From Norana najaformis (Eukaryota > Annelida > Clitellata > Crassiclitellata > Hormogastridae), in NCBI GenBank assembly GCA_964023275.1, contig OZ029919.1:32829561-32893560 (forward strand): a DNA stretch of 64,000 nt, given 5' to 3'. The position numbers and the translations under genes were made by a program. The notes under the pieces were generated by a model. That model made no database searches. It was not told the origin of the DNA and was given only the letters and a program-made list of their open reading frames with translations. Shown piece after piece: positions 18,038 to 63,167 of the stretch (positions are counted from its first letter, which is position 1; each line of letters starts with the position of its first letter).

Positions 18038-18110
18038 ATGTCACGAATCACCACTCGGGTTGATTTTGTATCGGTGACAATTTCCTTGATTCCGACAGTC
18101 GTCCTACTGG
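18038..18110 (+). CDS. LDLR: LDLR-like exon 1, signal peptide
   Basis: ATG at 18038 opens a basic N-terminus (MSRITTR) followed by a hydrophobic run ending TVVLLG. The exon closes with CTGG|gtaaga in phase 1, the phase required by the next exon. The signal sequence continues across the intron to a likely cleavage after VSA (residues 33-35). The link over 15.3 kb rests on phase, signal character and the absence of a competing candidate. Confidence 0.65.
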
Positions 18111-32342: not shown

Positions 32343-35300
32343 GTAATTATGAGTGTATGTGTTGATTTATCAAGGCAGTTAATATAGCCCCTTTAAACAA
32401 CATGTTTTTCACAGACTGTTTATCACAGAACTGTTTCTGTAAACCGGCTCAACTGGCTCTTCAAACCAACTTCAAACTCCTTACCTGATCATTTATTAAG
32501 AGAAGCCTTAATTACGACTGGTCACTGGTCGCTTGTTCCAATGACAACTTCATGGAGTGGTCCCAGTGGCTCAAACACCCTTAATAAAACCTGAAAAGAG
32601 ACGGTGTAGTTGCCTAATAAAAGTAGCCATTGGTCAGACGAGGAGCTGTTTACTGAAACCAATCTCTTTCTAAGACAAGCCAGCAGACCAGAGTCAAACA
32701 TGATGGTACTTGTGTGATGCAACCTGTAGTATTTATAAATGTATCATCATAAGAAATCAGTGTTTTCAAGTTTTTTTGTTGTGCTGTTTTTAGGGGTATT
32801 GTGGCTATTTCAATGCGCTTACCTTCAGCATTACTTTTGCTTAAGAAGAATTTGAGGAGAATTTGCCATTTGAAAATTGTTTAGTTATGCTGAAGTTGGT
32901 TCTGTGTTTGCCAACAGACCTCGTAAACCCAAGGGAAAATGGTGGATGCCAGCAGAGATGGTCCATTTCAGAACAATGTTTTTTGGCTTTTTTCCCAATC
33001 ATGACGAGTCTTTTCTATTCAGGGATTTAAAAAACTAATAATATAATTATTAACAAAACTTAGCCACACACACATCTGGAAAGATTAATCGTTCTGGAGC
33101 TGCACTCTTCTGCAATGGGGTAATTTTCCCACCCACTGCATCTGGATTTTATTTTTGAGCTTTAAATATAAAATAATAATAACCTATTAACAGCTTATAC
33201 AATATTTTGTGTTACTAAGGATGACATATACTTCAAACAAAAAAATAATTTTATTAAGAACTACTTTATCTAATAAATAATAATGATAATAACTAATTAA
33301 CAGCTAGTAACATAATTTTGTGTTACTAAGGATTACATATACTTCAAAGAAAAAACAATTATAATTAAGAACTGCTTTATCTAATAAATAATAAAATAAT
33401 AATAACGATAAAAATAATAATACTGGAATGATTATATTTGTAGGCAGCCTGGTGGGGTATGTTCCAGTATCGGCTTCACTTTCCTGTGTTGATGGAACAG
33501 TTGCATGTCTGGATGATTCCGTGTGCTACAGCGATGCAGACCGATGCGATAACATTCCCGACTGCGATGACGGAAGCGACGAAAGAAACTGCACCAAGTC
33601 TTGTGGGGACGATGAGTTTTACTGCGCAGTGGATGACGAATGTTTTTCCCTTATGTACAAATGCGATGGGGATTCCGACTGCTCCGACGGTTCCGATGAA
33701 CTGGACTGTATGCAGTCTAATCTTATCTAATCTAATAAGATTTATCGGCAATGGTATTCTTATTTCTTTGAAAATTGTGAAGAGAATACAGACCACTCGG
33801 CCTCGTAGGCCGAGGCTAAGAAAAAGAAGTTGCTAACAGTTCGTCGTTCATACTAGTGGATGGCTTCCTCGCGGGATTAGTTCAGTTGTGGTCGTAAACT
33901 CGAGATTTCTACAACGCCCAATGAAAGCTAAGTCACAGGACGCAGCTTATTCACAGGTGCTCAGTCAAAACAAAATCGATAGGCAGAGAGGGTTTAGTTC
34001 CAAGTCGAGATCCAAGAGTCAGACGGGCAGTCAGACGGTTATGGTGAGTGGTGTTTGGAATTGGAATTGCTCAAGGGCGTCTTCTTTTCTTTGTAAAACA
34101 CAATTGAGACATCAAGGGCCAAGTAAGCATTCTGTTTAGCTGTATGGTATTTTCACTGATGTTTCTGGGAGGCTCTTAGACAGTAGTTTGTAAATGCACG
34201 GCGATTTGTAAGCAGTGTAACTGTAATTGTATTCAGAAATTTGTTCACCTGTTCAAGAGAGACTAATCGGAGGCACTGTCTGCACTAGGTTTAACGACAT
34301 TAAATGCGATTGAGAACAGAACATTGTGGACTGACCTTCTGGATGTTGACCTCTATGCATCTTTGCTTTGATACCTTGTGCATTAGACACCGGCACATTA
34401 GAAGTTACTAATTATTATAATATTTTATTATTACCTTACAGACTCTGATCGTGTGGATGTTTTCAGGTGACAACGTGACGTGTAGTCTTGAAGGCGAGTT
34501 CATGTGCGTCTCGGACAAGAAATGCATCGTGGGATCGCTGAGATGCGACGGAGTCGCTCACTGTCACGACAGCTCCGACGAAAATGACTGCGTGGAAGCT
34601 ACTGAAAGCGATCCAGGTAGGCATAAACAAAGGTAAAGGTAATAGAGGTAACACTCCGATATGCAGCCCTATCCTACAGAAAGGTAATAGAGGTAGCACA
34701 GTGATATGCAGCCCTACCCTGTAGAAAGGTAATAGCGGTAACACACCAGTGTGCAGCCCTACCCTGTAGGAAGGTAACAGAGGTAACACACCGATGTGCA
34801 GCCATACCCTATGGAAAGGTAATAGAGGTAATACACCGATATGCAGCAGTACCCTATTGAAAGGTAGTAAAGGTAACGCAACGATATGCATCCCTGCCCT
34901 ATAGAAAGGTAATAGAGGTAACACACTGATGTGCAGCCCTACCCTATAGCAAGGTAATAGAGGTAATGCAGTGATATGCAGCCCTACTCTATGGCAAGGT
35001 AATAGAGGTAACACACTGATGTGCAGCCCTACTCCATAGAGAGGTAATAGAGGTAACACACCAATGTGTAGCCCTACCCTATAGAAAGGTAATAGAGTTA
35101 ACACAGCGATATGCAGCCCCTACCGTATAGAAACTTCCCTAAGTGTGATCCACATCACATTGCCCAGATTACCAATCAATGTCTTGTATATTGTGATAGC
35201 AGAAGTCATTTGATTAGATTAGATTAGAATTGTCACAAAATTCGCACATGTTTCGAGCTCTGTGTGACATGCACCACACACTGGCTTCCACTCAAGAAGA

Positions 35301-38300
35301 CGATTACATGCAAAGATCCTCCTCGTGGGGTCGGCCTTGATAGTTGGTGCGGCATCTTCTGGATACTACATCAGAGAGCTGTGCACTCCTATGTCGAGCC
35401 AGGCAGTTCGATTGATTTCTGCAACACCTGTGGACCTTCTGGTCCCGCCACACAAACACATCTTGCTTTTTGGTACACTGTACCCCTCTCTGAACAATCG
35501 CCCTCTCTGAACAATCGCCCTCTCTGAACAATTGTCCACTGACTGACTGGCTATATGCTGTTGTGATTGCAGGGCCGAATCCATGCGATCCTGAACTGAC
35601 TCTTGATTGCAAGGGAGATCGAACAAACTGCATACCTTTGCGCAAGAGATGTGATGGTCACGAGGACTGTGCGAATGGCGAGGACGAGCTTGAATCCCTC
35701 TGCAGTTCAAATTCTTCAGGTATGCCGTTTAACCCCTTTACCGTGGAATAAATCTTTTCAAAGTCTTTCCACACGTGTATTTATTTTTAGGTATTCTTCA
35801 AAAATAATGCATGTGATTAAGGAAGACTGGTTTTTGTAATTATAATATTCCACAAGTCTTTCTTTGCTCTGAGAAACATAAAAGTCGACATATTATAATA
35901 TTTTTTTAAAGTAGGCCCATTAGTGCTCCTTATGAACACGCCTTACAGGTGTTCCTATAAATGCTAAGCATTGATTTCATCTCTTGACCACGCCAAAGGC
36001 GAACTGCTGTCGAACTGAACGGCTATCATCACTGTCATAATTTTCTAACACAGCAATGTTACTAGAACTAGAACTTAGTTTGCTATCATCATTATCATTG
36101 GACAAACTATCATAACTTTCAAACAGTAAATAACGTAGGCCCTATTTCTTTTATAGAAACCATGTTTCCGACCAGCCATTTTTAGTGTGAACTATATAAT
36201 TTTATTTAGTTGGTCCGCCCAGCATATGACCTAATTTATAATAATGTTATGGAAAACCGTTATTATAATCGTAAAACTCTATTATATTTTGCTATTAGGA
36301 CAAGTTTATTCGGGATACACGGTGAGTGAATAGATGCATATCATGCGGACGAGTTAACTCAGGGTTCACGGTAAAGGGGTTAAAGGAATGAAGTAAATAT
36401 GTGGTCAACTTGAAAATTACTAATTACAATTGTTACGCCTGTGAATAAGCTGGCTCCTGTGACTTAGCTTTCTTTGGGTGCTGTAAAAATCTTGAGTTTT
36501 ACGATTACGATTTACAGTTACAACATGGCATGTTATAAGGCTGTTCCAGCACTCCACTTTTATAATGAGAATAATCGTAGTAATCGTAATCTCAAGAACT
36601 TCTAAAGCGCTACTTAAAAGCTAAGCGCAGGGCACCAGCTTATTCATGAACGCAGTAGAATGGGTAACTAAATTTTTGCCACGTTTGGAGTTTGTTCTGT
36701 CATTTTGTTTGCAGAATCTCGATGTGCTGTTGATAATGGCGGCTGTTCCCACCATTGTGTTGAGAATATACATGGACATCACTGCATCTGTCCAGAGGGA
36801 TATGACCTTGGCTTTGACCACAAAACCTGCGAAGGTCAGATCCAATTTCAGACGCGATTCTTCTGGTTTTCTTACTTTGTACAATGTGTTTAGCTTTGTG
36901 TTGCATCGATGCTGGTTGTTCTGCTTTTCTAAAACGATGGCTTCTGAATGCGAGTAACTTGTTCTCTCAAGGGCTGTAAGTTAAGTTGACGGATATGCTA
37001 AGTTATGGACTGATCTTTTTTTGTAGTTGTAAAATGCCGCTGAAGGTTTCCTGATTTATTTTCGTAGGATCTAGACCTCCACTTGGCATTTTCTCTTATA
37101 CTCTTTCTCATCTTTTGTCTGTCTGTCTGTCTGTATGTCTCTATCTGTCCGTCTAACTGTTTCTTTGTCATGTCTTTTGTGTGTCTCTCTTGTCTGTCTT
37201 ATGTCTGTCTGTCTCTTTGTCTTGTCTGTGTATGTCATGTCCGTCTGTCTGTCTGTCTGTTGTCCAGTGTCGTATTTTCTGATTCCCATCTCTCTCTCTT
37301 CGGAGCTGCATGAGGTAAATCTGTTCACGTGGAACCAGTGGATGGGTTTGTTTACTAAATCTGTTCACGTGGAATCAGTGGATGGGTTTGTTTACTAATT
37401 CACCTTTGAGGAGTTTCTCTTGAAAAGGTGCTATATAAATGTGCAATTTTCGAACTACAAATTTCCAAGGAAAACTTTGAGAATGCTGTTTTTGGTAACG
37501 ATATTCTAACAAACTAACACTAAGTTTTGTTAATTAAGATGGCATGGCTGATACTAACCGAATGTATGAGTTTTACTAACAAACCAAGTTTACTGTGGAT
37601 AAGCATAGAATGATAAAATACATTTCGAGCTACTGTCAAAGCAGTTGAATGCAGTGTTTGCTGTTAATATGAAGTCTCCGGCAGCATCATTTTCGTTTGC
37701 TGCCAGCTGCAGAAATTGCCGCATAATATTAATTTTTACCAGTATTTGCAATTATCTGCTGAGATTTATGACGTCAGTTGTTCAGAATGTTATTTGTTTA
37801 TAACATGCAAACACATTTGAGCCTTGCCGTCATCTGAAATTGCTTCTGCCTTGATTTTAGCAGAGTTTGTGTCCTCTTCTGAAAGGGGAAGAGACCAGTA
37901 AAATGGTCAGAGGAGTCTACTGTTTTTAGAAGATGAAGCTTCTAAAACGGTAGATGCCTACACAAACGCAGCTTATACGCTGTGATGATGATGATGAGTT
38001 CTCTGCCCGAAGGCAGGTCCCTTGACTTTATGCCACCTGGGATGAGATTACTGAGGTGTTTTCCTGTTGCCTTGCTCACAGACAATTGTGGTTGAGCAAC
38101 TGGTCCAAGGTCGCTACGCAGTGGCTTCAGGCACATTCGAACCCATGACCCTCCATTTGCGAGGCACAGACCATACCACTACACCACCCACGTTCCACAT
38201 TATATATGTATGAAAATAAAAGAGGTTGCTGGTGTGGGTAGTGTTGTTGTTCAATCTGCATGCATTGGACAATGTTGCATTTTCAGACATTGATGAATGT

Positions 38301-40585
38301 ATTAGCCATGCATGTTCCCATGACTGTAAAAACCTGGATGGCAGCTTCGAATGTGCTTGTTATGATGGTTACCGATTGGCCGAAGACTCGTATACTTGTT
38401 TGGCAGACGGTTAGTAACACAGTTGGATGTTCCACTTTTCCGCTTGTTATTTATCTGCTTAAATGCTCTGGAATGCTCTGCGTGATTGACTTCATGTTTA
38501 TTTAACGGCTGTTAGTTCTGCTACTGCAGTTAATAATGCTTTTTGAAACTGCTATTACTGAAGTTAAACTATGAATAAACCAAACTCTTGTTAACTCATC
38601 TACTACGGATGTTTGAAATATAGGAACAGTTTTTAAATTATGCATCGGTTATTATAAATTATCGTTGCGTTTCTTTTTCTGGACTGCATGTAAATACATA
38701 CACACATACAACTGTGGGGCTCAGTAGCAGATTGGTTAGAGCGATTGGCCTGTAATGCAGAAAGTGTGGGTTCAAGTCTTCCCTTGAACCGTTACTTTGT
38801 AGGGACCTTGAGCAAGCCTTTCTCTCACAGTTGCTCAACACTATTGACTCATGCTTAGTCATTAGATAGTGGTGCTTAATAAATGCATAAATAATAACTT
38901 ATGCTAACTGAACATAAATAATAACGTATACTAACTTAACATAAATAATAACTTATGCTAACTGAACTTAAATAATAACTTACTCTAACTGAACACAAAT
39001 AATAACTTATGCTAACTGAACATAAATAATTACTTATGCTAACTGAACATACATAATAACTTATGTTAACTGAACATAAGTAGTAGCTTATGCTAACTGA
39101 GCAAATAATAACTTATGCTAACTGAACATAGATAATAACTTATGCTGACTGAACATAAATAATAACTTATGCTAACTGAACATAATAATAACTTATGCTA
39201 ACTGAACATAATAACTTATGCTAACTGAACATAATAACTTACGCTAACTGAACACAAATAATAACTTATGCTAACTGAACACAAATAATAACTTATGCTG
39301 ACTGAACTAAATAATAACTTATGCTAACTGAACGCAAATAAATAGCTTATGCTAACTGAACATAAATAATAACATATGCTAAATGAACAACCTGACGTTG
39401 CAGTCGGTCATTTTGATTGAGCAGGTGATGAACCAGAATTGTGGGCGACCAATGGGAGTATTCTGGTTCAGTATCACCTTCACTCAAGCGATCGACAGAT
39501 AACAAACCTTGGTGGAACACCGCACAGCATTGCATACGATCGCAAAAACGAGAAAATATTCTGGATTGATTCGCAGAGGAAAGTGATTTACTGGTGGGTG
39601 TTGTTGCCCTGATTGTCTATGAACATTAACATTGATTTATTAATTAACGTTAATTAATTAGCTCATTAATTATTATTAATTTTTATGTTTATTTTTCATT
39701 ATTGTAAATATAAATTTATGATAATTTGTTATTTTATATTATTTCATCAATATCTTTATTTTTTAGGTCCAAAATTTGTTAATTATAAATATTAATGTCT
39801 ATTGTATTTTTTATTGTTAAAGGCTTTTATCGTACACCTTGTCGTTATTCTTCAGGTCAAACAAAGACTCGGCTGGGCTGCCAGAGGTCCTCATCAACAC
39901 TCTGATCGACGTTCCAGCTGCTCTGGCCTTTGACTGGGTCCATGACAACCTCTACTGGGCCGACGCGGGCCAACACACCCGACACACCAAGATCGAAGTT
40001 GTGACCCTTGGGGGCGAGGAAAAGTGGCGGTCGGTCGTTTTGAGTCCCCCGGAAGTGGAGCACCCCAAGTATATGGTCGTTGACCCACGAGAAAATGAAG
40101 GGTCAGTGCTCTTACCTTGTTTTTTTATTGTTTTATTTGGTTTTTTCTTTTGTTTACTCTGGTGTGTTCATGGTACCTGGCATTATGATTGGATCGCGTG
40201 AATGTAGAAGAATTGAAGCGCATTTCTGGTAAGCTAACCCCCCAAAGATGTGTGGCACGGTGGTCTGTCAGTAACGCAGTTGGTCAGTGATCATGTGGTT
40301 GAGGGTTCAACTCCGTGTAACGACCCTGGGCAAGTTGTTTGCGCACACCGTACCTCTGTCACCAAGCAGTAGAATTTGATACTGGCATAATCTGGGAAGG
40401 AAACGGCAAGTCCTGCGATGCACTGGTATGTATGTATGTATGTATTAAGATGCTTAAAATTGCACCTTCTGAGTACCTTGCAAAAGTGCTGCACATATAC
40501 TTACTTACTTATATAGCTATCTACCAGATCTAACCAACCTGTATGTGTTTATGTATGTTTAATATATTTATGTATGTATGTCTGT

Positions 40586-40616
<31 letters not shown>

Positions 40617-43600
40617 ATCTAAACATTTAAATATGTACATGTATATAAGATTGATGGATTGTGTTTTTGTTTAGCTACTTGTACTGGGCTCAGGGAGGGC
40701 TGAACCCCGTCATACGCAGAGCAGGTCTTGACGGATCAGAACCTCAGACGATCGTCAGTAGCGACCTAGGCAACGTGCATGGATTAGCATTGGGTGCGTT
40801 TCCGTGGTAACGTTTGTAGCGTTTAAGCATTTATATAGCACCTTTTGGGAACATTTCAAAAGTGCTACATATGTGACTTTGTGACTAATCTAAACTTTCT
40901 GCTCAGGCGGGGACATGAACTCGTGATATTTCAAATGACAATCCAGCACCCTAACCACTAACCAATCTAACCATCCAATCACAGTGACCAATCAGTGAAG
41001 GTAGTGTAAGATAATGCTTATCTTACATTACCTGAGATAATGCTTATCTTACATTACCTTGTTTTACTATCGCTTACCTTAATTGACCATTTTTCTGTTT
41101 ATTTTGGCACGAATTGTTGAATTTTGTCATTGAAGTGGTGCTACATAAATTGCATTGTATTACATTTACATTACTTATTGCAGATTTGGCGGATGATCGG
41201 TTGTTCTGGGTCGATAGTAAACTGAACATCATCGTGAGTCTTGGTCTCCATGGCCGCGACCGTGAAGTCCTTGTTACGTTTGTCGAATACCCAAAACACC
41301 CGATCGGCATCGGAGTTTTTGAGGTATGGTGTATTCTGAATCGGTGGTATGTTATGGTCTTTCTTTAGTGTGTAAGATCGTCAGTTCAAGGGTGGTTGTA
41401 TGTGTAACAGGGTGGTTGAATGTGTAACAAGGTGGTTGAATGTGTAACAGGGTGGTTGAATGTGTAACAGGGTGGTTGAATGTGTAACAAGGTGGTTGAA
41501 TGTGTTATAGGGTGGAGGAATGTGTTACAGTGCAACTGTTACACATTAAGCCACCCTGTTACACATTCAGCCACCCTGTTACACAGTTGGTCATTGTGTT
41601 ACACTAATGTATAACAGGGTGGCCTGCTGTGAAACACGGTGGCTGATTGTGTACAGTGTGGATGAATGTGTTACAGCACACATGTGTTACACACATGTGT
41701 TACTCAGTCATCCGCCCTGTTACACAGTCATCCACTGTGTTACACAGTTGGTTATCTTGTTACACTAAATCTGTACTTTGTTTCTGTTAAGGACTGGGTC
41801 TACTGGGCTGACATTGAGGCCAAATCCGTTCACAAGATGGAGAAATTCCTGCGCCAGGACGAAGACAGACCGACGATTACGACCGTCCTCGATCAACTGA
41901 CGAATCCACATTCGATCGTAATCTACCACAAATTGAAACAACCGGAAGGTAAGTCTTTGCGCTTTTTCTGAGAGATGGTGCAATATAAATGCCTAATTGC
42001 TTTACATTACAGTAAAGTATAAGTTAAAATGCAGACCAAAGAAGCTGGACTATTGGCCCAGAGGTTTGGGGTTGAAATCTTCACCAGGACCAAAACATTA
42101 GATAGTTGCTCCTAATAAATGCAGAAATAATAATATTTGCATTAGATATTTCTACACGTTGCCCAAGTTCTGGCCTGCATTTCACAAACACTGCTTGCTA
42201 ATGGTTTGAGTGCTTCGCAGACGATTGTCTTGGTGGAAATAAAAAATAATTAGTATTTCAGTTGCTGATTTAATTCAATTGCAGGCGAGAGTTACTGTGG
42301 AAATAACAGTGGTGGTTGTTCGCACGTATGTCTCCCGTCGCCTCATTTTACCCACTTCCATTGTCGCTGTCCGCTGTCGACGGACAAAACGAAACATTAC
42401 GTTGTTGATGCCGAAAACTCTTCATCCTGTCTGTTAGTTGGTAAGCGGATATGTTTGTTTTTTATATTTATGAAGTGCCTGTAACAAAGAGTTGTAATCG
42501 TAATCGTAAATTTGTAAAGCGCCGCTTAAAGGTAGCCTCATCAGGGGCACTCCCGACCCATCGTCCCAAAACTGGGGAATAATACGGTCTTCAAGCGCTT
42601 ACAGACGAGGGAGGGGAGAGGGAGAGAAGCTTCCGTCGAAGGATGGGTTAGACTGTTGGGAGACTAGATTAGGACTTATTAGAATTAGAATAACTGAGAT
42701 TAGACTGGACTTGATTTGATTCGGTTACTGGTAGATTTGAGTACACTGTGCTAGTTTTGTACACCTCTTGTTTCTTTTGAAATGAAGCTATACAAATTTC
42801 TGTTTATGATTACAGTTACTGACTTGGAATTTATTAGATTAGATTAGATTTGACTAGGCAGACTGGGATTGGATTTGATGGTACTGGACATGACTTTATT
42901 TAGACAATGAAATAAGGGCTTTTGATTTTTAGTATGTGTCAGCACAGGAGTTTTTAGATCTAACTAAATTAGGTCAGATCAAACTAAACCAGGTCAGATC
43001 AGACTTGATTAGGTCAGATCACAGGGTCAAGCAAGCTTAAAATTTACCAGATACACTCTGGAACAGTCTGCCATGCAACATGCAACACAAGCTTTTTGTG
43101 CTTTCTCTGCCCCTGTTTCGCTAGCAATTGAAGATCGTTCTGTTTGATCATGCTTGATCTTTTGTTACACGGTCAGTAGTTGTCTTAAAGAGGTGCTATA
43201 TAAATGGGAAATTATGATTACGATACGTTGTCTGTACCTTCTCTTCCCTACAGATGGCGCTTCTGCGTCGCTGACGGTGACTTCGTTGCCGGGGTCCATG
43301 ACATCAGCCACGTCGGCAGGTTCCCAGACAAACTTCATCAATTCCAAGTCACTTTTCTTCACAGCATATACCGCAGGTGGAGGGTTGAGCACTCCTTGGG
43401 GAGGTGACCGCTCCACCTCGGGGCAGTCGGGAAGCCATGGCGACAACATGTGGGTGTACATTGGTGTTGCAGGCGCCGCTGGATTGCTCATCATACTTGT
43501 ATTATCAATCGTAAGTGTACTTTTAGTTATTATTATTATTATTAGACAAAGTTCAATACTTAAAAAAAACTTGTCAGTCTAATGTGGAAAGGTTCTGGAA

Positions 43601-44047
43601 AAGCAGATGGCATTCCCACGCTGAATAGACACCGAGAGTCTTTGGAGCAGGTAGCTGGTCTCCAGTGGATCGTGGGATGCATCAGTCAACCTTTGTCCTA
43701 ACTCAGACACAAAATCCATCCCTTCCTTACTCCGTTTGCCGCTGGTCTCCAGTGCGACCACCACAAAAGCATGGGTTTTGGCTATATTGGCGTATTCTAG
43801 CCCATTTGGCCGAGACTGCCCGGTTTGCAGCTTCACTTGGTCCGGTTTATTTATTATTATTATTATCATTATTATGATCATCATCATCATCATTATTATT
43901 ATTATGATCATCATCATCATTATTATTATTATGATCATCATTATTATTATGATCATCATCATCATCATTATTATTATTATGATCATCATTATCATCATTA
44001 TTATTATTATGATCATCATCATCATTATTATTATTATGATCATCATC

Positions 44048-44098
<51 letters not shown>

Positions 44099-45003
44099 TT
44101 TTAAACCAAGGGCTGCATTTGTTAGCGCTGGCTTTTTCTGATGTTCCTCTGCTTCTGTTCCAGCTAGGGTAGGTTTTATTTATATCTTTTGTTCTGAGTG
44201 GGACGTGGTGGTGTATTGGTATGGTAACTGCCTCGTAACCGGAGGGTTACGGTTTCGAATCTGCCTCAAGCCACTGCGTAGTGACTTTGGACAAGTTCCG
44301 TTCCGTTCTCAGCCTTCCTCGTTCCGAGATTCGGCCGCATCATGCACAATGTTCCTCCAGTGTCCTCTGTCCTCCACCAGCCTGAGCATCTCCTCCATTG
44401 TTAGCCCAGTCCATGCCCTGATGTTGCCCAACCAGTTTATTCTCGGTCTTCCTCTTTTCCGTCCTCCCGGTATTGTGCCTTGTATTATTGAACAAGTTGC
44501 TCACCCACAATTGTCTGTGAGGAAGGCAACGGAAAACCACCTCACTCATCTCATCCCTGGGTGGCATAAAGCCAGTGGACCTGCCTTCGGGCAGAGAACT
44601 TGTTATTATATCTATGTTCTGAGTAGGAAGGTTTTCCCATGTTTCTGTTCTGCTTAGCTTAGGTTCCCCTTTTTTGTGTCTGGGTTAAAATAGATGTTCC
44701 GTGTTGCATTATCTGGTTAGGGAAGGCTTTCCCCGTTTTCCTCCTCTGGTGTCCGGGTAGACTTTCCTTTTTTATTCTGCTCTCGTTAGGGTGGGTTGTC
44801 CCATTTTTTTAAATTCTGGTTTTGGACAGCTTTTTATATTTTCTGTTATGCTGTAATTTATTTTATGACATATGATGCTGTTCCTTTAGGTGGGGTACAA
44901 GCTGTACGCACGACACGTCTCGAAAAACCTGCACTTTGACAATCCGGTGTTTGAGCAGAAGCCTCTTCGGAACTCCGAACGGCAGGCAGACTCGAGAGCA
45001 TGA
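18038..45003 (+). CDS. LDLR: LDL-receptor family protein (LDLR/VLDLR type), complete, 14 coding exons
   Basis: The model joins 18038-18110, 33444-33707, 34467-34616, 35573-35719, 36715-36834, 38287-38409, 39425-39593, 39856-40101, 40675-40793, 41184-41323, 41792-41948, 42285-42440, 43254-43510 and 44890-45003: 744 residues, phase-consistent throughout. Domain order is signal peptide (about 1-35), LDLa modules (39-74, 78-113, about 118-154, about 167-206), EGF-A (215-250), Ca-binding EGF-B (252-290), six-bladed YWTD propeller (about 293-569), EGF-C (about 570-621), Ser/Thr stalk, transmembrane helix (about 687-710) and a 35-residue tail with FDNPVF (723-728). This is the architecture of LDLR, VLDLR and LRP8, which take up lipoproteins, and of invertebrate lipophorin and vitellogenin receptors. 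It is shorter than the roughly 860 residues of LDLR because it has four rather than seven or eight LDLa modules. Which vertebrate paralogue is closest cannot be decided by eye. Confidence 0.9.
18430..18545 (+). repeat. Repeat G copy
   Basis: Shares GCCATGTCAAGAACC, GTCCGGTTGCCAG and AGGGTGGGTTGT with 19008-19105, in the same orientation, within LDLR-like intron 1. Confidence 0.65.
18925..19005 (+). repeat. SINE-A fragment
   Basis: Worn copy running directly into a Repeat G copy. Confidence 0.55.
19008..19105 (+). repeat. Repeat G copy
   Basis: Second plus-strand copy, directly after a SINE-A fragment. Confidence 0.6.
19663..19775 (+). pseudogene. LINE C-terminal tail and 3' end
   Basis: Reads [17 protein letters not shown] then a stop, the end of a non-LTR retrotransposon ORF. 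An A/T-rich tail with an AAT microsatellite follows, as at many LINE 3' ends. Confidence 0.6.
20505..20585 (+). repeat. SINE-A fragment
   Basis: Contains the ATCGTA repeats and GAGATTTCTACAGCACCC. Confidence 0.65.
21190..21400 (+). pseudogene. LINE C-terminal tail
   Basis: Reads [20 protein letters not shown] then RLKMHHFL, a non-LTR retrotransposon C-terminus, followed by an ATT-rich 3' tail. Confidence 0.65.
21535..21690 (+). repeat. GTT/GCT trinucleotide microsatellite
   Basis: About 50 imperfect units. The poly-Leu and poly-Thr open frames across it are artefacts. Confidence 0.9.
22600..24010. other. Intron 1 stretch of the LDLR-like gene, no gene seen
   Basis: Unique-looking A/T-rich sequence without repeats or exons that I recognise. 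Confidence 0.35.
24015..24135 (+). repeat. SINE-A copy with open frame
   Basis: Near-consensus copy reading [19 protein letters not shown], the same frame as the copy at 33890. Confidence 0.7.
26060..26521. repeat. Element F copy 1
   Basis: About 450 bases, nearly identical to 28657-29071 in the same orientation. Starts GCCACCCCGCAG and carries AAAACCCCGTGAAGGG and GCAGAGGGCGCCATAATACG. Unlike the SINEs it is G/C-rich and shows no tRNA head. Confidence 0.75.
26870..27066 (-). repeat. SINE-D copy
   Basis: Contains TTCTCTGCTCGAAGGCAGGT, TATGCCACCCCGGATGAGTG and a reverse B box (TTCGAACCCGCGACC). Related copies lie at 37985 and 44198. Confidence 0.7.
27910..28000 (+). repeat. GTAT microsatellite
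   Basis: Imperfect TATG tract. Confidence 0.85.
28370..28580 (+). repeat. GTAT/GAAT microsatellite
   Basis: Long imperfect TATG tract; Met/Cys/Val and His/Thr open frames across it are artefacts. Confidence 0.88.
28657..29071. repeat. Element F copy 2
   Basis: Direct repeat of 26060-26521 with small gaps and scattered substitutions, 2.6 kb downstream. Confidence 0.75.
29072..30600. other. Intron 1 stretch, no gene seen
   Basis: Contains a GA run near 29355-29380 and otherwise unremarkable A/T-rich sequence. Confidence 0.35.
30605..30790 (-). repeat. SINE-B copy
   Basis: Inverted copy with CTATAACGACCGCTTGATCT and GTTTGAATGGGCACC. Confidence 0.7.
31268..31525 (-). repeat. SINE-A copy, longest
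   Basis: The most complete copy, about 250 bases. On the minus strand it reads [20 protein letters not shown] in the same frame as the copy at 33890. Confidence 0.7.
32268..32342. repeat. TA microsatellite
   Basis: Near-perfect (TA)n, about 70 bases. Confidence 0.9.
33165..33410. repeat. Tandem duplication of about 120 bp before LDLR-like exon 2
   Basis: Two adjacent A/T-rich copies sharing TTTTGTGTTACTAAGGAT and GCTTTATCTAATAAATAAT, ending about 35 bases before the exon. Confidence 0.75.
33444..33707 (+). CDS. LDLR: LDLR-like exon 2, LDLa modules 1 and 2
   Basis: Two six-cysteine LDLa modules lie in one exon. Both carry the calcium-binding pattern (CDDGSDE in the first, CSDGSDE in the second). 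The exon enters in phase 1 after ttatatttgtag and ends GACT|gtatgc. The split codon T|GT restores the last Cys of module 2, which confirms the junction. Confidence 0.9.
33885..34060 (+). repeat. SINE-A copy with open frame
   Basis: Near-consensus plus-strand copy in LDLR-like intron 2, open for more than 50 codons. Confidence 0.75.
34467..34616 (+). CDS. LDLR: LDLR-like exon 3, LDLa module 3
   Basis: One LDLa module with CDGVAHC and DSSDENDC, in a symmetric phase 1-1 exon of 150 bp. A 45-bp minisatellite begins within about 20 bases of its donor. Confidence 0.9.
34625..35125 (+). repeat. 45-bp minisatellite, about 11 copies
   Basis: Units of the form AAAGGTAATAGAGGTAACAC then GATGTGCAGCCCTACCCTA. 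The array begins within about 20 bases of the donor of LDLR-like exon 3. Confidence 0.9.
35573..35719 (+). CDS. LDLR: LDLR-like exon 4, LDLa module 4
   Basis: One LDLa module in a phase 1-1 exon. The acidic calcium motif is degenerate (CANGEDE in place of the usual CxDGSDE) and the C-terminal loop is one residue longer, so calcium or ligand binding may be weaker. Confidence 0.9.
36436..36512 (-). repeat. SINE-A fragment, inverted
   Basis: Faces the copy at 36572 across about 60 bases. Confidence 0.6.
36572..36652 (+). repeat. SINE-A fragment
   Basis: Worn copy ending about 60 bases before LDLR-like exon 5. Confidence 0.6.
36715..36834 (+). CDS. LDLR: LDLR-like exon 5, EGF-A
   Basis: A 120-bp phase 1-1 exon encoding one EGF module with the LDLR-type start [12 protein letters not shown] and a CICPEGYDL core. 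Confidence 0.9.
37115..37265 (+). repeat. TGTC microsatellite
   Basis: Imperfect TGTC tract in LDLR-like intron 5. Confidence 0.88.
37985..38195 (-). repeat. SINE-D copy
   Basis: Contains TTCTCTGCCCGAAGGCAGGT and the reverse B box (TTCGAACCCATGACC), ending about 90 bases before LDLR-like exon 6. Confidence 0.72.
38287..38409 (+). CDS. LDLR: LDLR-like exon 6, calcium-binding EGF-B
   Basis: A phase 1-1 exon of 123 bp starting DIDEC, the calcium-binding EGF signature, with the hydroxylatable-Asn region C.NLDGSFEC and six cysteines. Confidence 0.92.
38714..38890 (+). repeat. SINE-E, tRNA-derived
   Basis: An A-box-like AGATTGGTTAGAGCG and a B-box GGGTTCAAGTC stand at tRNA spacing. The body ends GTGCTTAATAAATGC and runs straight into a tandem array. 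Confidence 0.7.
38890..39390 (+). repeat. Minisatellite of about 27 bp growing from a SINE tail
   Basis: About 18 copies of AATAATAACTTATGCTAACT then GAACATA, with length variation in the AAT part. It ends about 35 bases before LDLR-like exon 7. Confidence 0.9.
39425..39593 (+). CDS. LDLR: LDLR-like exon 7, YWTD propeller part 1
   Basis: Encodes the first propeller strands and the first YWTD-type motif (FWID). Enters in phase 1 and leaves in phase 2 within a Trp codon completed by the next exon. Confidence 0.9.
39856..40101 (+). CDS. LDLR: LDLR-like exon 8, YWTD propeller part 2
   Basis: Contains NLYWADAG, a clear YWTD blade, and ends PRENEG in phase 2. At 246 bp it is slightly longer than the matching vertebrate exon; the extra residues fall in the [10 protein letters not shown] loop. 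Confidence 0.9.
40256..40430 (+). repeat. SINE-C copy
   Basis: Plus-strand copy with tRNA-like head (GGTTGAGGGTTCAACTCCGT), in the intron after LDLR-like exon 8. Confidence 0.65.
40585..40618. repeat. TA microsatellite
   Basis: Short (TA)n in the same intron. Confidence 0.85.
40675..40793 (+). CDS. LDLR: LDLR-like exon 9, YWTD propeller part 3
   Basis: Begins by completing GYLYWAQ, a YWTD variant with Gln in place of Asp. Exactly 119 bp, phase 2 to 1, ending in the NVHGLAL strand. Confidence 0.9.
41184..41323 (+). CDS. LDLR: LDLR-like exon 10, YWTD propeller part 4
   Basis: Exactly 140 bp, phase 1 to 0. Contains RLFWVDSKL, near-identical in spacing to the LDLR blade, and [10 protein letters not shown], the counterpart of the LDLR AHPF.LAVFE segment. 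Confidence 0.92.
41391..41765. repeat. 20-bp minisatellite in both orientations
   Basis: About seven units of GGGTGGTTGAATGTGTAACA are followed by inverted and mixed units (GTTACACATTCAGCCACCCT), forming a large potential hairpin between LDLR-like exons 10 and 11. Confidence 0.85.
41792..41948 (+). CDS. LDLR: LDLR-like exon 11, YWTD propeller part 5
   Basis: Starts [12 protein letters not shown] (YWTD motif) and ends [15 protein letters not shown], which corresponds to the LDLR strand that closes the propeller. Phase 0 to 1. Confidence 0.92.
42285..42440 (+). CDS. LDLR: LDLR-like exon 12, EGF-C
   Basis: Encodes [16 protein letters not shown] followed by a CRCP core and a final Cys, the third EGF module that packs on the propeller in LDLR. 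Phase 1-1, 156 bp. Confidence 0.9.
42490..42545 (+). repeat. SINE-A fragment
   Basis: Short copy of the left end only. Confidence 0.45.
42940..43025 (+). repeat. Degenerate 20-23 bp tandem repeat
   Basis: About four copies of a unit with AACTAAATTAGGTCAGATC. Confidence 0.7.
43254..43510 (+). CDS. LDLR: LDLR-like exon 13, Ser/Thr stalk and transmembrane helix
   Basis: The first 60 or so residues are rich in Ser, Thr and Gly, like the O-glycosylated stalk of LDLR. They are followed by a hydrophobic helix ([20 protein letters not shown]) that continues into the next exon. Phase 1 to 0. Confidence 0.88.
43850..44098. repeat. ATT/ATC microsatellite
   Basis: About 250 bases of ATTATT and ATCATC blocks in a higher-order pattern. 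Met/Ile and Tyr/His open frames here are artefacts. Confidence 0.92.
44198..44600 (+). repeat. SINE-D copy split by a LINE fragment
   Basis: The head (44198-44300, B box GGTTTCGAATCTGCC) and the body (44490-44600, with GGCATAAAGCCAGTGGACCT) are separated by about 190 bases of other sequence. Confidence 0.65.
44309..44480 (-). pseudogene. LINE reverse-transcriptase C-terminal fragment inside SINE-D
   Basis: The minus strand reads [20 protein letters not shown] then [20 protein letters not shown], the classic C-terminal block of non-LTR retrotransposon ORF2, ending at a stop. It is open throughout, so it may be young. Confidence 0.8.
44890..45003 (+). CDS. LDLR: LDLR-like last coding exon, cytoplasmic tail
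   Basis: Encodes [20 protein letters not shown] and then FEQKPLR and a polar end, stop TGA at 45001-45003. FDNPVF aligns with the LDLR internalisation signal FDNPVY with Phe in the last place. The tail is only about 35 residues. Confidence 0.9.
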   Translation: MGYKLYARHVSKNLHFDNPVFEQKPLRNSERQADSRA

Positions 45004-45650
45004 GATCACAACTGGTCCCGATGTGAGTAGTTTCTGCAGACTTTATTCTTAGCGTCTTAGTGTTTGTTTTCATTCTGTAAGATTATGTCGCGTCTCTTTA
45101 CGATAACCTGGAACTTCTTATGATGCTGACTTTGTGAGACATGTAAATGTACACGATTTTCTATAGCGACCATATGACCTCGACCCTGCTCATTTTTTAA
45201 TGAATAAATCGGGTGAGATCCTTCACCGCTGCTGCCAGTTTGAATGGGTGCCATGACATTTAAGGTTCCCGTATACGGACCGTGCTAGCCCAAGATTCAA
45301 ATCTCTGAAATAAGCCACGACTGGGAATCCTCGCGCACAGAGGCTCCTTGGCTACGCATTTATCGAAGTAGCTAACTAGCCCAGCGTGTGTCAGGAACTG
45401 CCCTGAGGCAAGGTTGTGTTATGATGATGTCTTTTTCGTTCGAGAGCATGAGATCACAACTGGTGCCGATGTGAGTAGCTTCTGCAGACTTTATTCTGAG
45501 GGACATAGTGTTTGTTTTTGTTCAATAATATTATGTGGCATGTCTTTATGATATGTTGGAACTTTTTATGATGTTGACTTTGTGAGACATGTGTCAAGAA
45601 TCAACGTCTTGAGGTGAGGTTGAGTTATGATGACATCTTTTTCTGAGCTG
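44996..45650 (+). repeat. Tandem duplication of about 200 bp at the LDLR-like 3' end
   Basis: The segment starting GAGAGCATGAGATCACAACT occurs at 44996 and again at 45443. Both copies continue through TTTGTGAGACATGT to a CTTTTTC end. The first copy is interrupted by a SINE-B. Confidence 0.8.
45145..45386 (-). repeat. SINE-B copy
   Basis: Full-length inverted copy with a complete tRNA-like head at its right end (reverse of GGCTAGTTAGCTAC). Confidence 0.75.
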
Positions 45651-49298: not shown

Positions 49299-49522
49299 CA
49301 TATTTGGTTCTCTCCTAAGTTTAGGAATCTCATATTTGGTTCTCTCCTAAGTTTAGGAATCTCATATTTGGTTCTCTCCTAAGTTTAGGAATCTCGTATT
49401 TGGTTCTCTCCTAAGTTTAGGAATCTCATATTTGGTTCTCTCCTAAGTTTAGGAATCTCGTATTTGGTTCTCTCCTAAGTTTAGGAATCTCATATTTGGT
49501 TCTCTCCTAAGTTTAGGAATCT
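49299..49522 (+). repeat. 32-bp minisatellite, seven near-identical copies
   Basis: Units begin CATATTTGGTTCTCTCCTAA and repeat every 32 bases; the only variation seen is CATATTT versus CGTATTT. Confidence 0.93.
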
Positions 49523-51984
49523 CTTGGGCTTTGCTGTTACAACTCTAGAAGATTTGACTGGGTGAGTTTGTTCTGTCGGAATCCTCTTGACTGAATTGGA
49601 CTTTGTGAAGACGACAGTGGAGTTGCAACAACTACATATACATTACATTACATATGTAGTTATTGGAAGTGTAGAAACACTACTACCTCTGTGGAGTGTA
49701 AAGTATGGGAGTGTACAATTGTATGTTTAGGCTAACAAAGTGTTTAGAGCTTTTGCCTTGGATTTAGTTCTGTTGTGAAGGCAAGATAAGAAAAGAGCAT
49801 TAAAGACGAAAGGTTTATTCCATGTACGAAGAGTGTATTAATTACTTCTAATTATTCTAGGTAATTTTATGTTTTCTTTGTTTGGTGGCAAATTCAATAG
49901 AAGAACTTGCAAAGTCAACCGGTCTATAGGAATATCTTTGTATTTATGATATGATTACACGCTTGTCGGTGATACTGCCTGGAAACATTCCTTTTCAAAA
50001 GCCCCTTCTTGTTTTCGTTGATAGTCACTTTGCAACTTCCTCCATGTGTAGGTATACTTTCTGTTTGTTGTACAGCGAGAAAGCGATTGTTTTAGTTAGT
50101 AGTGTGTATGTTTCTTCATTGCATTGTGATTTTTGTATTAGTTTGGCCAGAGCGTCTGTTGATGTTTGTTGGTATTAAAATCGAATGAAATGTTACACTG
50201 ATTTATCCGTTTCATACGTTTCAGTATACGTGGCTTAGCCTGTCAGAGTTTTGTCTGCCGTATGAGCGAATGTGGAAAACGCAGTTTTGAATACTACCTG
50301 CTTTGTAGAAATTTGTAGTTTTGCTTGTGTTTGGACTTGCATTTCAAATGTATGTGTGTGTGTCAGGCACATATATAGGGCATGTATAGGGCACATTTTG
50401 AGCACCTCCTCCAGGTACAACATGCATGGGTATCTGATCTAAGCAGGTGCAGTGGAGAGTACACAGAGATTGTAAGCTGAACTGAACTGGATTAAATGGT
50501 AGCGTTTACTTAATGGGAGATTTTTCCAGGTGGAAGATCCGATGCTTGAGAGAACCTAAATGCCATTAGTAAGTAATTCACGAAAGATGAGCTTTTAGTC
50601 CAGACTCTAACGACATCAGAGAACAAGTGGAAATAAATAAAAGCTACATGTTTAGGAGTTTCTAAATTCAGCTCTTATTTGACCCTGGCAGCCATGTTCC
50701 CTGTGCCTCCGGTGGCTCGCTATGTATGGGCCCATGTGGGTCCAACAGCCCGGGCTATCAAAGGAATTTTTTCAATAGTTCAAACAAAAAACTCAGTCAA
50801 ATGCAGATTTTAATTCATCGGCTCGACTTCATACGCTGAAACTGAAACGTCGTTAAATATCCATTCAAGAAATAGAATAACAGACAAGTAAACTTTTTTG
50901 TAGTATTCTCTTTACACAGAACAGATTAGAAATTCTAAGTAGACGGCCAAAAACATCAACTAAAATTACTACCGCTTTTACAGGAATCATCAGCCCCGAT
51001 AAATTTATCCCTCACAAATCAATCGACAACACAAAATGCACCATTTTTTAACACATGGATAAATTATAAAATTTTTGAAAATAGTTTTGCTGACTTTAGA
51101 TGAAATGACTGACTAGTATTAGTTTGATCACAAAGATTACAAGTGCTACCCATGGTTTAATTCTCAACCACAAAAACAATACAATAATAAGTAATAATAT
51201 TAATAATAATAACAAAAATACTAATGCTCAGTTAATTTGTGTATTCCTCAGGAAGCATATATACCTCTCGTAGAAAATATTTTAATAATAAGTCATCAAA
51301 GGCATCTTTCTGGATGGTTTCGATGAAGATAGGCTTAGAATTTTTAAAGATTTTCTCTACGTCAGATTTTTAAAGAATCTTCTAATTCAGATAAAAACAA
51401 CCAATATAACTTATATCAGTAATAATAATATAGAAAACAAATATTAAAAGTATAAATAATAATAGTAATTGGTAGATATACATTACCTGACAAAAACAGT
51501 CAGTAATTCGTTGATAATAAACCGATGTAAACCTTTCACGATTTTCAGTATTCTTGTTAAACCCAAATAAATGATAGATAAAATCGTAATCGAACACTTA
51601 ACACGGCGTCATCATTTCGAGAAAACTCCGAGGCATTCGCGATCCAAGAACACAGCGACTGAACAAACGCTTTCAGGTGTAGACAGCAAACACTGCATAA
51701 TTCAAATGCACCCTCGTCCTAACTTAATGCATCGTTCAGCCATTTAGACAGAAGTACCATCATTCTTTGTCTCCATCTATCTTTCAGCTGACTCCAGTCG
51801 TAAGTAAATGCAAACTTTATAATGTACACAGATTCTAACGTAACGTGGTCCGGCTCATGGATCCACAAATTTAATACATCTCTAGAACATGCCATTCTTA
51901 CAACAACGCTAGAATGTGCTGCTTAAAATTGCTGCTAAGTATTAAGGTTCTGTCGTAAATCTCCCATGTTCCATAATGAAACGA

Positions 51985-54761: not shown

Positions 54762-54954
54762 CTACTGTGAGGCGATTTTCTGTGGAATGTCGTCCATCCT
54801 AAGACATGCGCTGTGCACAAGGCCTTCGCTCTCTCCAAGGCGACACAGCTTCCAATCTGGATCGCGGTCCTGCAGTATGAACAGCAAACTGCCCTTCTCA
54901 AAACTCAGCTGCTGGCTGTCTGCGGCAACGTAGTGACACAGCGTTCGAGCAGAC
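54762..54954 (-). CDS. RUSC2: RUSC homologue last exon, SH3 domain
   Basis: Minus-strand exon after acceptor tttcag. It encodes SH3 landmarks in order: ALYDY-equivalent TLCHYVA, LSFEKGSLLFIL, a Trp after the n-Src loop (PDWKLC) and GLVHSACL in place of the usual G.xPSNYV. Stop TAG is at 54764-54762. The usual Tyr and Pro ligand-groove residues are partly replaced, as in vertebrate RUSC. Confidence 0.9.
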
Positions 54955-57900
54955 CTGAAAAGAACGATAACTTTATTTTAATTTTATTTATTTTATTCAT
55001 TTCTATAAATTGTAATTGTAAGTTCTTCAGCATCCAAAAAAGCTAAGTTGCAGGAACCAGCTTGTTCACAAGTGCTCGGTCAAAACAAATTCGGTGAGGC
55101 AGGTAAAGTCAGGTTCAGTTCTAAGTTTGATTCCAAACGTTAATTTCAAGCAGTTGTTAAGCATGCAAAGTCTGCAAATCTTAATGTGAGGTGAGGATGG
55201 CCAAGAATGATGGACTTATGAAACAAGAATCAAGCACAGTGAAACTAACAGAACTAAGACATTTCAGGCAGGACAAGGGAATTATCCATTTCGAAAACGA
55301 TGACTACAAATGATGGACAATTCAGATGACAAAGAAAACAACTCAAGCATTGTGAGATAACATGAAAGAACTAGCATACCCCATGCAAGGTTACTGTGCT
55401 CTAGTTTGGGAAAATGTCCCTTTCAGGGGGGGGGGTAATTCCTGTTGCTCCCCATTTCTCCCTCTCCCGCCAATTCCACCATTTTTCTCTCCCCTCCCCG
55501 CCCCTTCCCGTCCTTCCTCCTACCTTTCCCTCTCCCTCGCACTTTCCAGATAGGCTGCCCAACCCTCCCTTGTCCTTCCTCCTACCTTTCCCGCTCCCTC
55601 ATATTCTTCCAATAGCCTGCAGAAGGCTCTGTGTGTGCCTGCTTCCGGTCCTCTGCCTCTCCTGGCTCATACTATTCCCCAGATCACCAGAGCTTTCCCA
55701 AATATTCAGCGATCCAGTCACCTAACTAGTATCATATTATTCACAAGATAGCACCAATGCTGGACCATGTACATACGCGTCTAAACAAATTATTAGATAG
55801 AAGAGAGCTCAAACGCATCAAAAGAAAGTTTAAGAAAGAATGATGTGCTCTAACAGAACAGAATATTAACAACCAACCTTAGATTTTGAGACACTGGTGC
55901 CAAGTTCACCATCTTTGTTTGGTTCCCCGCCGATGAATCCAAGCTGTGTGCTTTGAAGAACTGCGTACTCGTTGAAAGCTGTCGCCCTTTTATTCCGCTT
56001 CTCTCATCGACTGCGCCATTGTTTATCTGACCCATTGACTGGCATTTTACCACCGATGATGATTTTGCAGATGTCGTTGCCATGGTGTCGCTTAGCAACA
56101 GCCGATCGAATATGTTGACGAGTCGTGTTCCAAAGTCGCTCCATCGCTTCTTAGTGACGCTCTCATCAAGCGAGTCTGTTCTTCCGGTTGACGGCAAAGG
56201 CAATGGGTTACGAGAAGACTGGCCGTTTGCGAGACTGACCGCTCGTGCTCCCAATGTGCTGGTGGCATCGGACGAACCATGTCGACTGGCAGAAGCTGTT
56301 GTGAGCTTTGAAGATGTGAGCGCCTGAGATGGTCTGGAAATTCGTAACTGCGTCTTCACGGCGTCCACTGAATCAGGATCTATGTGCTTGACGTCAGAAA
56401 GCACGTTGCACTGAGCCCCGGAAATCATGGTTTCGCACGAATCACCAGATTTAGCAACTTTGGCGAGTTGATGAATAGAAACGTCTGGTTTACTCGTTTC
56501 TTTTGCATCTTTCTCCACGAGTTTTTCGTGCTCGACAGAATCGCTTTTTGCAGCAACAGTCTTCTGATGCAAGTCCTCGAAGCTGTAGTTTGTCACGCCA
56601 CGTCTGTAGACCCGATCTCTTAGATTCATGTCCTTCAGTTGTTTTGTGAGGCGCAGAAAGAATCCACCATCACTTTCTGATCCAGAAGATGATTCAACCA
56701 AACAGCTGGCGTCGCTGCCTCCCAACAATTCCATGCTCTCCAGCGGCGCCAGACTCCGGACTGAACTGACGCACGCCGGCGGATTCACATACTTTAAGTT
56801 GTCGACTTGGAAAGTCCCAGGAAGCGACATCGGTCGAGGTTTTCTGCTCACTGCTGCTCGCGTAACGCTCCTGATCAGCGTCGTGCTCTCGCTCGCGAGT
56901 CGTTCCTTGCTCGCGCTGAGTTTCTCGACCAGGTGGCGCTGCGTCTTCTGCCACAGCTGTCTCGTGCGCTGCTTCAGTTTCGATTCGGAGGCTGCTGCCG
57001 ACAGCATCTCGTCCTGCTGAAGAGCCTGTTGGCTGGACGACAGATTCTCCAGCTGGGTGAGGAACTGCTGGCCCTCGATGTATGTCTCGACGGATCGCGA
57101 TACGTGGCGATCGAGCAGGTACTCGGCGAGCTGCTCCTGCTGTCGTCGTTCGAGCATGCGCGTCTCGAAGCTGTACTCGAGGCGAAATGGCATTTGAGCG
57201 AGAGGTTGGAGCGACGTGATCATGTCGAGGAAAAGGCGGTGAGCGGCGGAGTTGCTCATGTGAATGAAACTGGACGAAGTGTAGTGTCTGGCCAACAGAG
57301 ATTTGTGATTGTGAATGTAGGTCAGCCAAAAGTCCAGCGCCTTGTAGCTGCAAACAACACGTGCCATCATTACAGTTCTCATCACTTCTTCTACTGATGA
57401 TTTGTGATATGTCAGCACCTTTTTTGAGACGCTGTATAAATGTTCTGATACACACATACATACAAATATACATACATTCATACAAACATACATACATATA
57501 TACATTCTTACACACATATATGTATACAGACATACATACATATAAAAACTATCACTGTCACCAACAGCAAACAAAACAACACTAGATAACAACAACAACA
57601 CAAAACTGACAACAAAATCACATCAACACAAACAAAACAACATTAACAACAAAGTAAATCAACAACAAGAATCCTGCTGCCAAAATCTTAATCTTTTGTA
57701 ACAGACCTTTCTTTAGACGAGGGTGTTGCTAACAGAGTAAACTCACTTGAGAAGTCCAAATATGAAAGCATTGAAGAGAAGCCAAGGTGTGTTCAGGAAC
57801 TTGAGACTTTTCAAAGACTTGACGAGACCCTGAATCAGCTCAATTGGTTGGCCTAAAAATGTAAATGCAATGTAACGTAACCAACAATAATACGATGTAA

Positions 57901-63122: not shown

Positions 63123-63167
63123 GGCAAATGCAGAAATGGCAGACAGCTCCTCGGTTTTACCATGAAT
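60083..63167 (-). CDS. RUSC2: RUSC homologue exon with start codon and disordered N-terminal region
   Basis: The exon follows a strong acceptor (cttctgtttgtctag on the minus strand, exon from 63167), so at least one 5' exon lies beyond the window. ATG at 63122 is the first in-frame Met, with no in-frame stop in the 45 exon bases before it, so extension upstream is possible. The encoded 1013 residues are rich in Ser, Thr, Pro and Gln, with scattered basic and phosphorylation-like motifs, and end TLS/I in phase 1. Confidence 0.85.

Follow-up and report, generated by a model that had tools for sequence, protein, structure and literature searches.

A predicted single-propeller LDLR-type receptor gene whose EGF-A to EGF-C introns are placed as in human LDLR

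When a receptor gene of the LDLR type in an invertebrate genome resembles human LDLR in its exon lengths, are the introns between those exons the same introns, inherited from a common ancestor, and how far along the gene does the likeness reach? Here we report the analysis of such a gene, encoded on the plus strand of a 64,000-nucleotide stretch of Norana najaformis DNA (contig OZ029919.1), which is referred to below as the window. A first-pass annotation of this DNA had described the gene as having a vertebrate-like LDLR exon architecture. The description holds for the segment from EGF-A to EGF-C but not for the LDLa part, nor for the part encoding the O-linked region, membrane helix, and tail, where the exon and intron layout differs. 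The gene very probably encodes an intact-looking, single-propeller endocytic receptor of the LDLR/VLDLR/ApoER2 type, and with the same high confidence we regard the introns of its EGF-A to EGF-C segment as ancestral and homologous with those of human LDLR.

Intron positions from EGF-A to EGF-C

All eight exons proposed for EGF-A to EGF-C were recovered at 36715-42440, with exactly the lengths of 120, 123, 169, 246, 119, 140, 157, and 156 nucleotides. Intron columns were compared in a MAFFT alignment of the window protein with human LDLR. In this alignment all seven internal introns of the segment share column and phase with an intron of the human gene, one after EGF-A, one after EGF-B, four within the propeller, and one before EGF-C, and none stands at a different column or in a different phase. 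The introns that bound the segment, before EGF-A and after EGF-C, keep the human phase and, measured from the adjacent cysteine, are displaced by one codon. The agreement in phase noted in the first-pass annotation is therefore borne out for the seven internal and both bordering introns, the phases of the nine being 1, 1, 1, 2, 2, 1, 0, 1, and 1. The exon lengths differ from the human ones by multiples of three throughout (0, -3, -3, +18, 0, 0, +15, and +3), and the two internal propeller exons of 119 and 140 nucleotides have the lengths of human exons 11 and 12, as had been claimed.

EGF and LDLa modules commonly have borders of phase 1-1, and for that reason the argument from chance leans on the introns of the propeller. 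Random placement of four introns among the 789 aligned nucleotides of the propeller would make all of them coincide with a probability of 6.2e-11; for seven introns over 1152 positions the value is 1.9e-18. No set of four introns among 200,000 drawn at random agreed with all four positions when the phase had to match and 3 codons of slack were allowed, and seven sets agreed with three. That the positions were kept from shared ancestry with human LDLR, as the annotation had suggested, is upheld by columns and phases that agree far beyond chance. The date that the annotation gave them, the bilaterian ancestor, goes further than this comparison, which for a deuterostome host would reach only to the deuterostome ancestor. 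Homology of the EGF-A to EGF-C introns with the human LDLR introns is thus supported, and these positions predate the split of this animal's lineage from the vertebrates.

The human LDLR sequence used in this comparison was confirmed letter for letter over residues 315-860 and, over its full length, only by a 2069-bit match spanning residues 1-860, and the exon lengths used sum to 2583 nucleotides, which is exactly 860 codons plus the stop. Two exon borders, c.1186 and c.1987, are assumed; the listing of c.1187 in exon 9 is consistent with a border at 1186. These two borders underlie two of the seven matching introns and four of the human lengths in the list of differences given above. The other five matching introns, including all four inside the propeller, lie at documented human junctions. 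The junctions c.67, 313, 1060, 1586, 1705, 1845, 2140, 2311, 2389, and 2547 are given in PMC9291778, c.940 in PMC3152176, and c.1359-1 in both PMC11719334 and PMC3722838. The human lengths that the annotation had given for exon 7 (120), exons 8 and 9 together (298), exon 10 (228), exon 11 (119), exon 12 (140), and exons 13 and 14 together (295) agree with splice-site names printed in PMC3152176, PMC9291778, and PMC11719334.

Gene model and predicted protein

The gene model spans 18038-45003 and comprises 14 coding exons (Table 1) that encode 744 residues without an internal stop. Splice borders were placed by eye and then rescored with splice-site weights that ignore human LDLR. All 13 introns have GT-AG borders, and at 13 of 13 junctions the chosen splice pair outscored every other in-frame GT/AG pair free of stops within 45 nucleotides, the candidates numbering 3-16 per junction with the chosen pair counted in. 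Exon 1, the inferred first coding exon, lies 15.3 kb upstream of exon 2 and is the weakest exon of the model; it is open, has a GT donor, joins exon 2 in frame, and its splice pair ranks first of three.

From its N-terminus the protein has a probable signal peptide and then four LDLa repeats, followed by EGF-A and EGF-B, a YWTD-type propeller, EGF-C, a Ser/Thr-rich stretch, a membrane helix, and a short tail. Pfam families in the spliced protein include Ldl_recept_a in four stretches, EGF-type families, and Ldl_recept_b in one stretch. Each of the four LDLa repeats has six cysteines, and the repeats are matched in a profile search of the window as well; vertebrate receptors carry 7-8 such repeats. 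The region between EGF-B and EGF-C is predicted from sequence similarity to be a single YWTD propeller, and one propeller region in a 744-residue model sets the protein apart from the multi-propeller LRPs (LRP1, LRP2, LRP4, and LRP5/6). In the Ser/Thr-rich stretch, 23 of 65 residues are Ser or Thr, and one membrane helix is indicated by the six most hydrophobic 19-residue segments, which lie at residues 687-710. The cytoplasmic tail, which ends in [22 protein letters not shown], contains FDNPVF, a motif of the FDNPVY type with Phe in place of Tyr, for which we found no mention in the literature searched.

Several repeats accompany the gene. Four of its introns contain tandem arrays, at 34635-35133, 38886-39389, 41389-41530, and 43868-44091, with unit lengths of 45, 27, 20, and 27 nucleotides, respectively. 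A 153-nucleotide stretch at 44992-45144, which runs from the last receptor codons into the 3' flank, is repeated with 87% identity at 45440-45592, 448 nucleotides downstream. A donor-like GTGAGT stands about 20 nucleotides past the receptor stop codon and recurs at the corresponding point of the second copy; the repeat with its GTGAGT may reflect an intron of the 3' untranslated region or a local duplication. Further into the 3' flank, at 49299-49523, a 32-nucleotide unit occurs in seven near-identical copies. A neighbouring gene occupies 54765-63167 on the minus strand, and its order of an open stretch, candidate RUN pieces, and SH3 resembles that of RUSC1/RUSC2. Neither Rfam at its gathering threshold nor ARAGORN gave a match in the window.

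Table 1. Coding exons of the receptor gene model and features of the minus-strand neighbour
Feature	Position	Strand	Phase	Content
Exon 1	18038..18110	+	donor phase 1	Start codon, with the greater part of the probable signal peptide ([25 protein letters not shown])
Exon 2	33444..33707	+	1-1	Remainder of the probable signal peptide, and both LDLa repeats 1 and 2
Exon 3	34467..34616	+	1-1	LDLa repeat 3
Exon 4	35573..35719	+	1-1	LDLa repeat 4
Exon 5	36715..36834	+	1-1	EGF-A; 120 nucleotides
Exon 6	38287..38409	+	1-1	EGF-B; 123 nucleotides
Exon 7	39425..39593	+	1-2	Propeller part 1; 169 nucleotides
Exon 8	39856..40101	+	2-2	Propeller part 2; 246 nucleotides
Exon 9	40675..40793	+	2-1	Propeller part 3; 119 nucleotides, length equal to human LDLR exon 11
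Exon 10	41184..41323	+	1-0	Propeller part 4; 140 nucleotides, length equal to human LDLR exon 12
Exon 11	41792..41948	+	0-1	Propeller part 5; 157 nucleotides
Exon 12	42285..42440	+	1-1	EGF-C; 156 nucleotides
Exon 13	43254..43510	+	1-0	Ser/Thr-rich stretch and transmembrane helix in one exon
Exon 14	44890..45003	+		Cytoplasmic tail, containing FDNPVF, up to the stop codon
1038-residue open stretch	60054-63167	-		No Pfam match at E 0.01
RUN domain piece	58291-58494	-		E 0.024; under the curated cut-off
RUN domain piece	55853-57622	-		E 5e-4; under the curated cut-off
SH3 domain	54765-54977	-		E 1e-7; above the curated cut-off

Family placement and alternative explanations

A search of PDB chains matched 94 distinct sequences, the best 60 of which include VLDLR (1.1e-111), LDLR (6.2e-94), and LRP8 (1.2e-88). 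Over EGF-A to EGF-C, the window protein is identical to LDLR at 129 of 384 positions (33.6%), to VLDLR at 139 of 383 (36.3%), and to LRP8 at 145 of 383 (37.9%). A search for relatives gave no pattern match in viral contigs, and of the nine stretches matched in genome contigs none was confirmed.

Several observations weigh against the placement of the gene with LDLR, VLDLR, and LRP8, or against the model from which it was derived. Whole-chain bits are highest for LRP2 and LRP4 chains, above VLDLR, LDLR, and LRP8, because these chains carry several units each. The identities of 34-38% to LDLR, VLDLR, and LRP8 compare with 53-62% among those three proteins. In a tree of seven sequences (the window gene, LDLR, VLDLR, LRP8, two LRP4 units, and one LRP2 unit), the window gene forms a long branch that falls outside the group of LDLR/VLDLR/LRP8 plus LRP4, with a support of only 56; orthology with LDLR, VLDLR, and LRP8 consequently rests on the domain order. 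Of the pH-switch residues of LDLR, His583 (mature 562) is replaced by Asn, though His607 is retained. LDLa3 has a His where an Asp of the calcium site is expected. Finally, the gene model is read from the DNA sequence, and its exon 1 lies 15 kb away.

Parallel insertion, or a bias of introns towards module borders, would produce part of the match even if the introns had not been inherited one by one from a common ancestor, and six of the nine introns in or bounding the segment are in phase 1, five of the nine bounding an EGF module in that phase. The four propeller introns, however, are in phases 2, 2, 1, and 0 and coincide exactly, at a chance of about 6e-11, which strongly disfavours this explanation and leaves it hardly any probability; a match from phase-1 module borders alone was rejected on the same phases. 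More room is left, though we still think it unlikely, for introns older than the LDLR subfamily and common to the LRPs and the EGF precursor, in which case the shared introns would not mark the gene as an LDLR/VLDLR orthologue and it could be a shortened LRP-like receptor. The weakly supported position in the seven-sequence tree agrees with such an origin, as does the best LRP4 unit, whose 273.9 bits come near the whole-chain values of LRP8 (301.5) and LDLR (318.9), and the LDLR and EGF precursor genes were reportedly found by Suedhof and colleagues in 1985 to have introns in common. Yet one propeller followed by a Ser/Thr-rich stretch and a short FDNPV tail is the order of LDLR/VLDLR/ApoER2, unlike that of the multi-propeller LRPs.

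A further explanation would be that the gene is a pseudogene, or that the exon model is partly wrong, some exons having been missed or being alternative; the reliance on DNA sequence, the distance of exon 1, and the duplicated stretch over the stop codon and flank lend it some weight. It is improbable in view of the 744-residue open frame, the GT-AG borders of all 13 introns, and the best in-frame splice pair at every junction; moreover, among six-frame stop-to-stop pieces of at least 25 residues, the window holds no additional LDLa-like match better than E 0.31. The possibility that the 15-kb first intron conceals extra LDLa exons was considered and rejected, the best match there reaching only E 0.83 at 20803-20922.

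Comparison with known receptors and proposed function

The preferred reading, an LDLR/VLDLR/ApoER2-type receptor with ancestral EGF-A to EGF-C introns, can be set beside characterized genes. Human LDLR resembles the window gene in domain order, in the seven internal introns of EGF-A to EGF-C, and in the two propeller exons of equal length, and differs from it at both ends. Vertebrate intron positions were found neither in the LDLa region nor in the O-linked, transmembrane, and tail regions. A single exon encodes LDLa repeats 1 and 2, where the human gene uses its exons 2 and 3, and the repeats number four in place of seven. Here the Ser/Thr-rich stretch and the membrane helix also share an exon, the tail has FDNPVF versus FDNPVY, and the last intron lies elsewhere, 11 columns from human intron 16 and in a different phase, and 42 columns from intron 17. 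The intron places at the LDLa and tail ends are a feature of vertebrate genes and not a requirement of the protein family.

This pattern of intron conservation is not new, having been reported in PMC10339998 for amphioxus (Branchiostoma belcheri) VLDLR. The introns of vertebrate VLDLR and LDLR are described there as almost identical, whereas in amphioxus VLDLR the positions and phases are greatly changed except in the EGF-precursor region, so that by this description the agreement with vertebrates is confined to that region, as it is in the window gene. The amphioxus gene has 858 residues, 13 exons, and FDNPVY, versus 744 residues, 14 coding exons, and FDNPVF in our model. Lipophorin receptor genes of Bombyx mori and Lepeophtheirus salmonis, which are likewise LDLR-type receptors of invertebrates, have 16 exons according to PMC5897026, and the comparison with them is one of exon count only. 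The tail of the cockroach lipophorin receptor has FDNPVY where the window gene has FDNPVF (PMC1933434), and human VLDLR has eight LA repeats versus the four LDLa repeats here.

By analogy with its family, the protein is likely a calcium-dependent endocytic receptor for lipoprotein or a similar ligand. Its LDLa repeats would use calcium in binding lipoprotein or some other ligand, FDNPVF in the tail would bring in an endocytic adaptor so that uptake proceeds through clathrin, and at low pH the propeller would help to free the cargo and return the receptor for reuse. Phe can stand in for Tyr in LDLR uptake. With Phe in place of Tyr in FDNPVF, uptake by clathrin adaptors is likely to be retained, and tyrosine phosphorylation at the motif would not be possible. 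The introns of EGF-A to EGF-C may simply not have been lost, with no function of their own needed, while the LDLa and tail ends were remodelled. We offer only tentatively, as a reading more doubtful than probable, that in a protostome or other distant bilaterian host the full EGF-A to EGF-C intron set has come down from the bilaterian ancestor with no intron gained, lost, or shifted, in a four-LDLa receptor whose FDNPVF keeps uptake but cannot be tyrosine-phosphorylated there for signalling.

The picture of LDL-receptor function is unchanged by these results. What the gene provides is a clear example, resolved to exact column and phase, in which the EGF-precursor segment keeps its introns and both gene ends are remodelled, and this is of use in dating the gains and losses of introns in the LDLR family. 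Any intron gain within vertebrates, as speculated on in PMC10339998, would have to fall outside the EGF-precursor segment.

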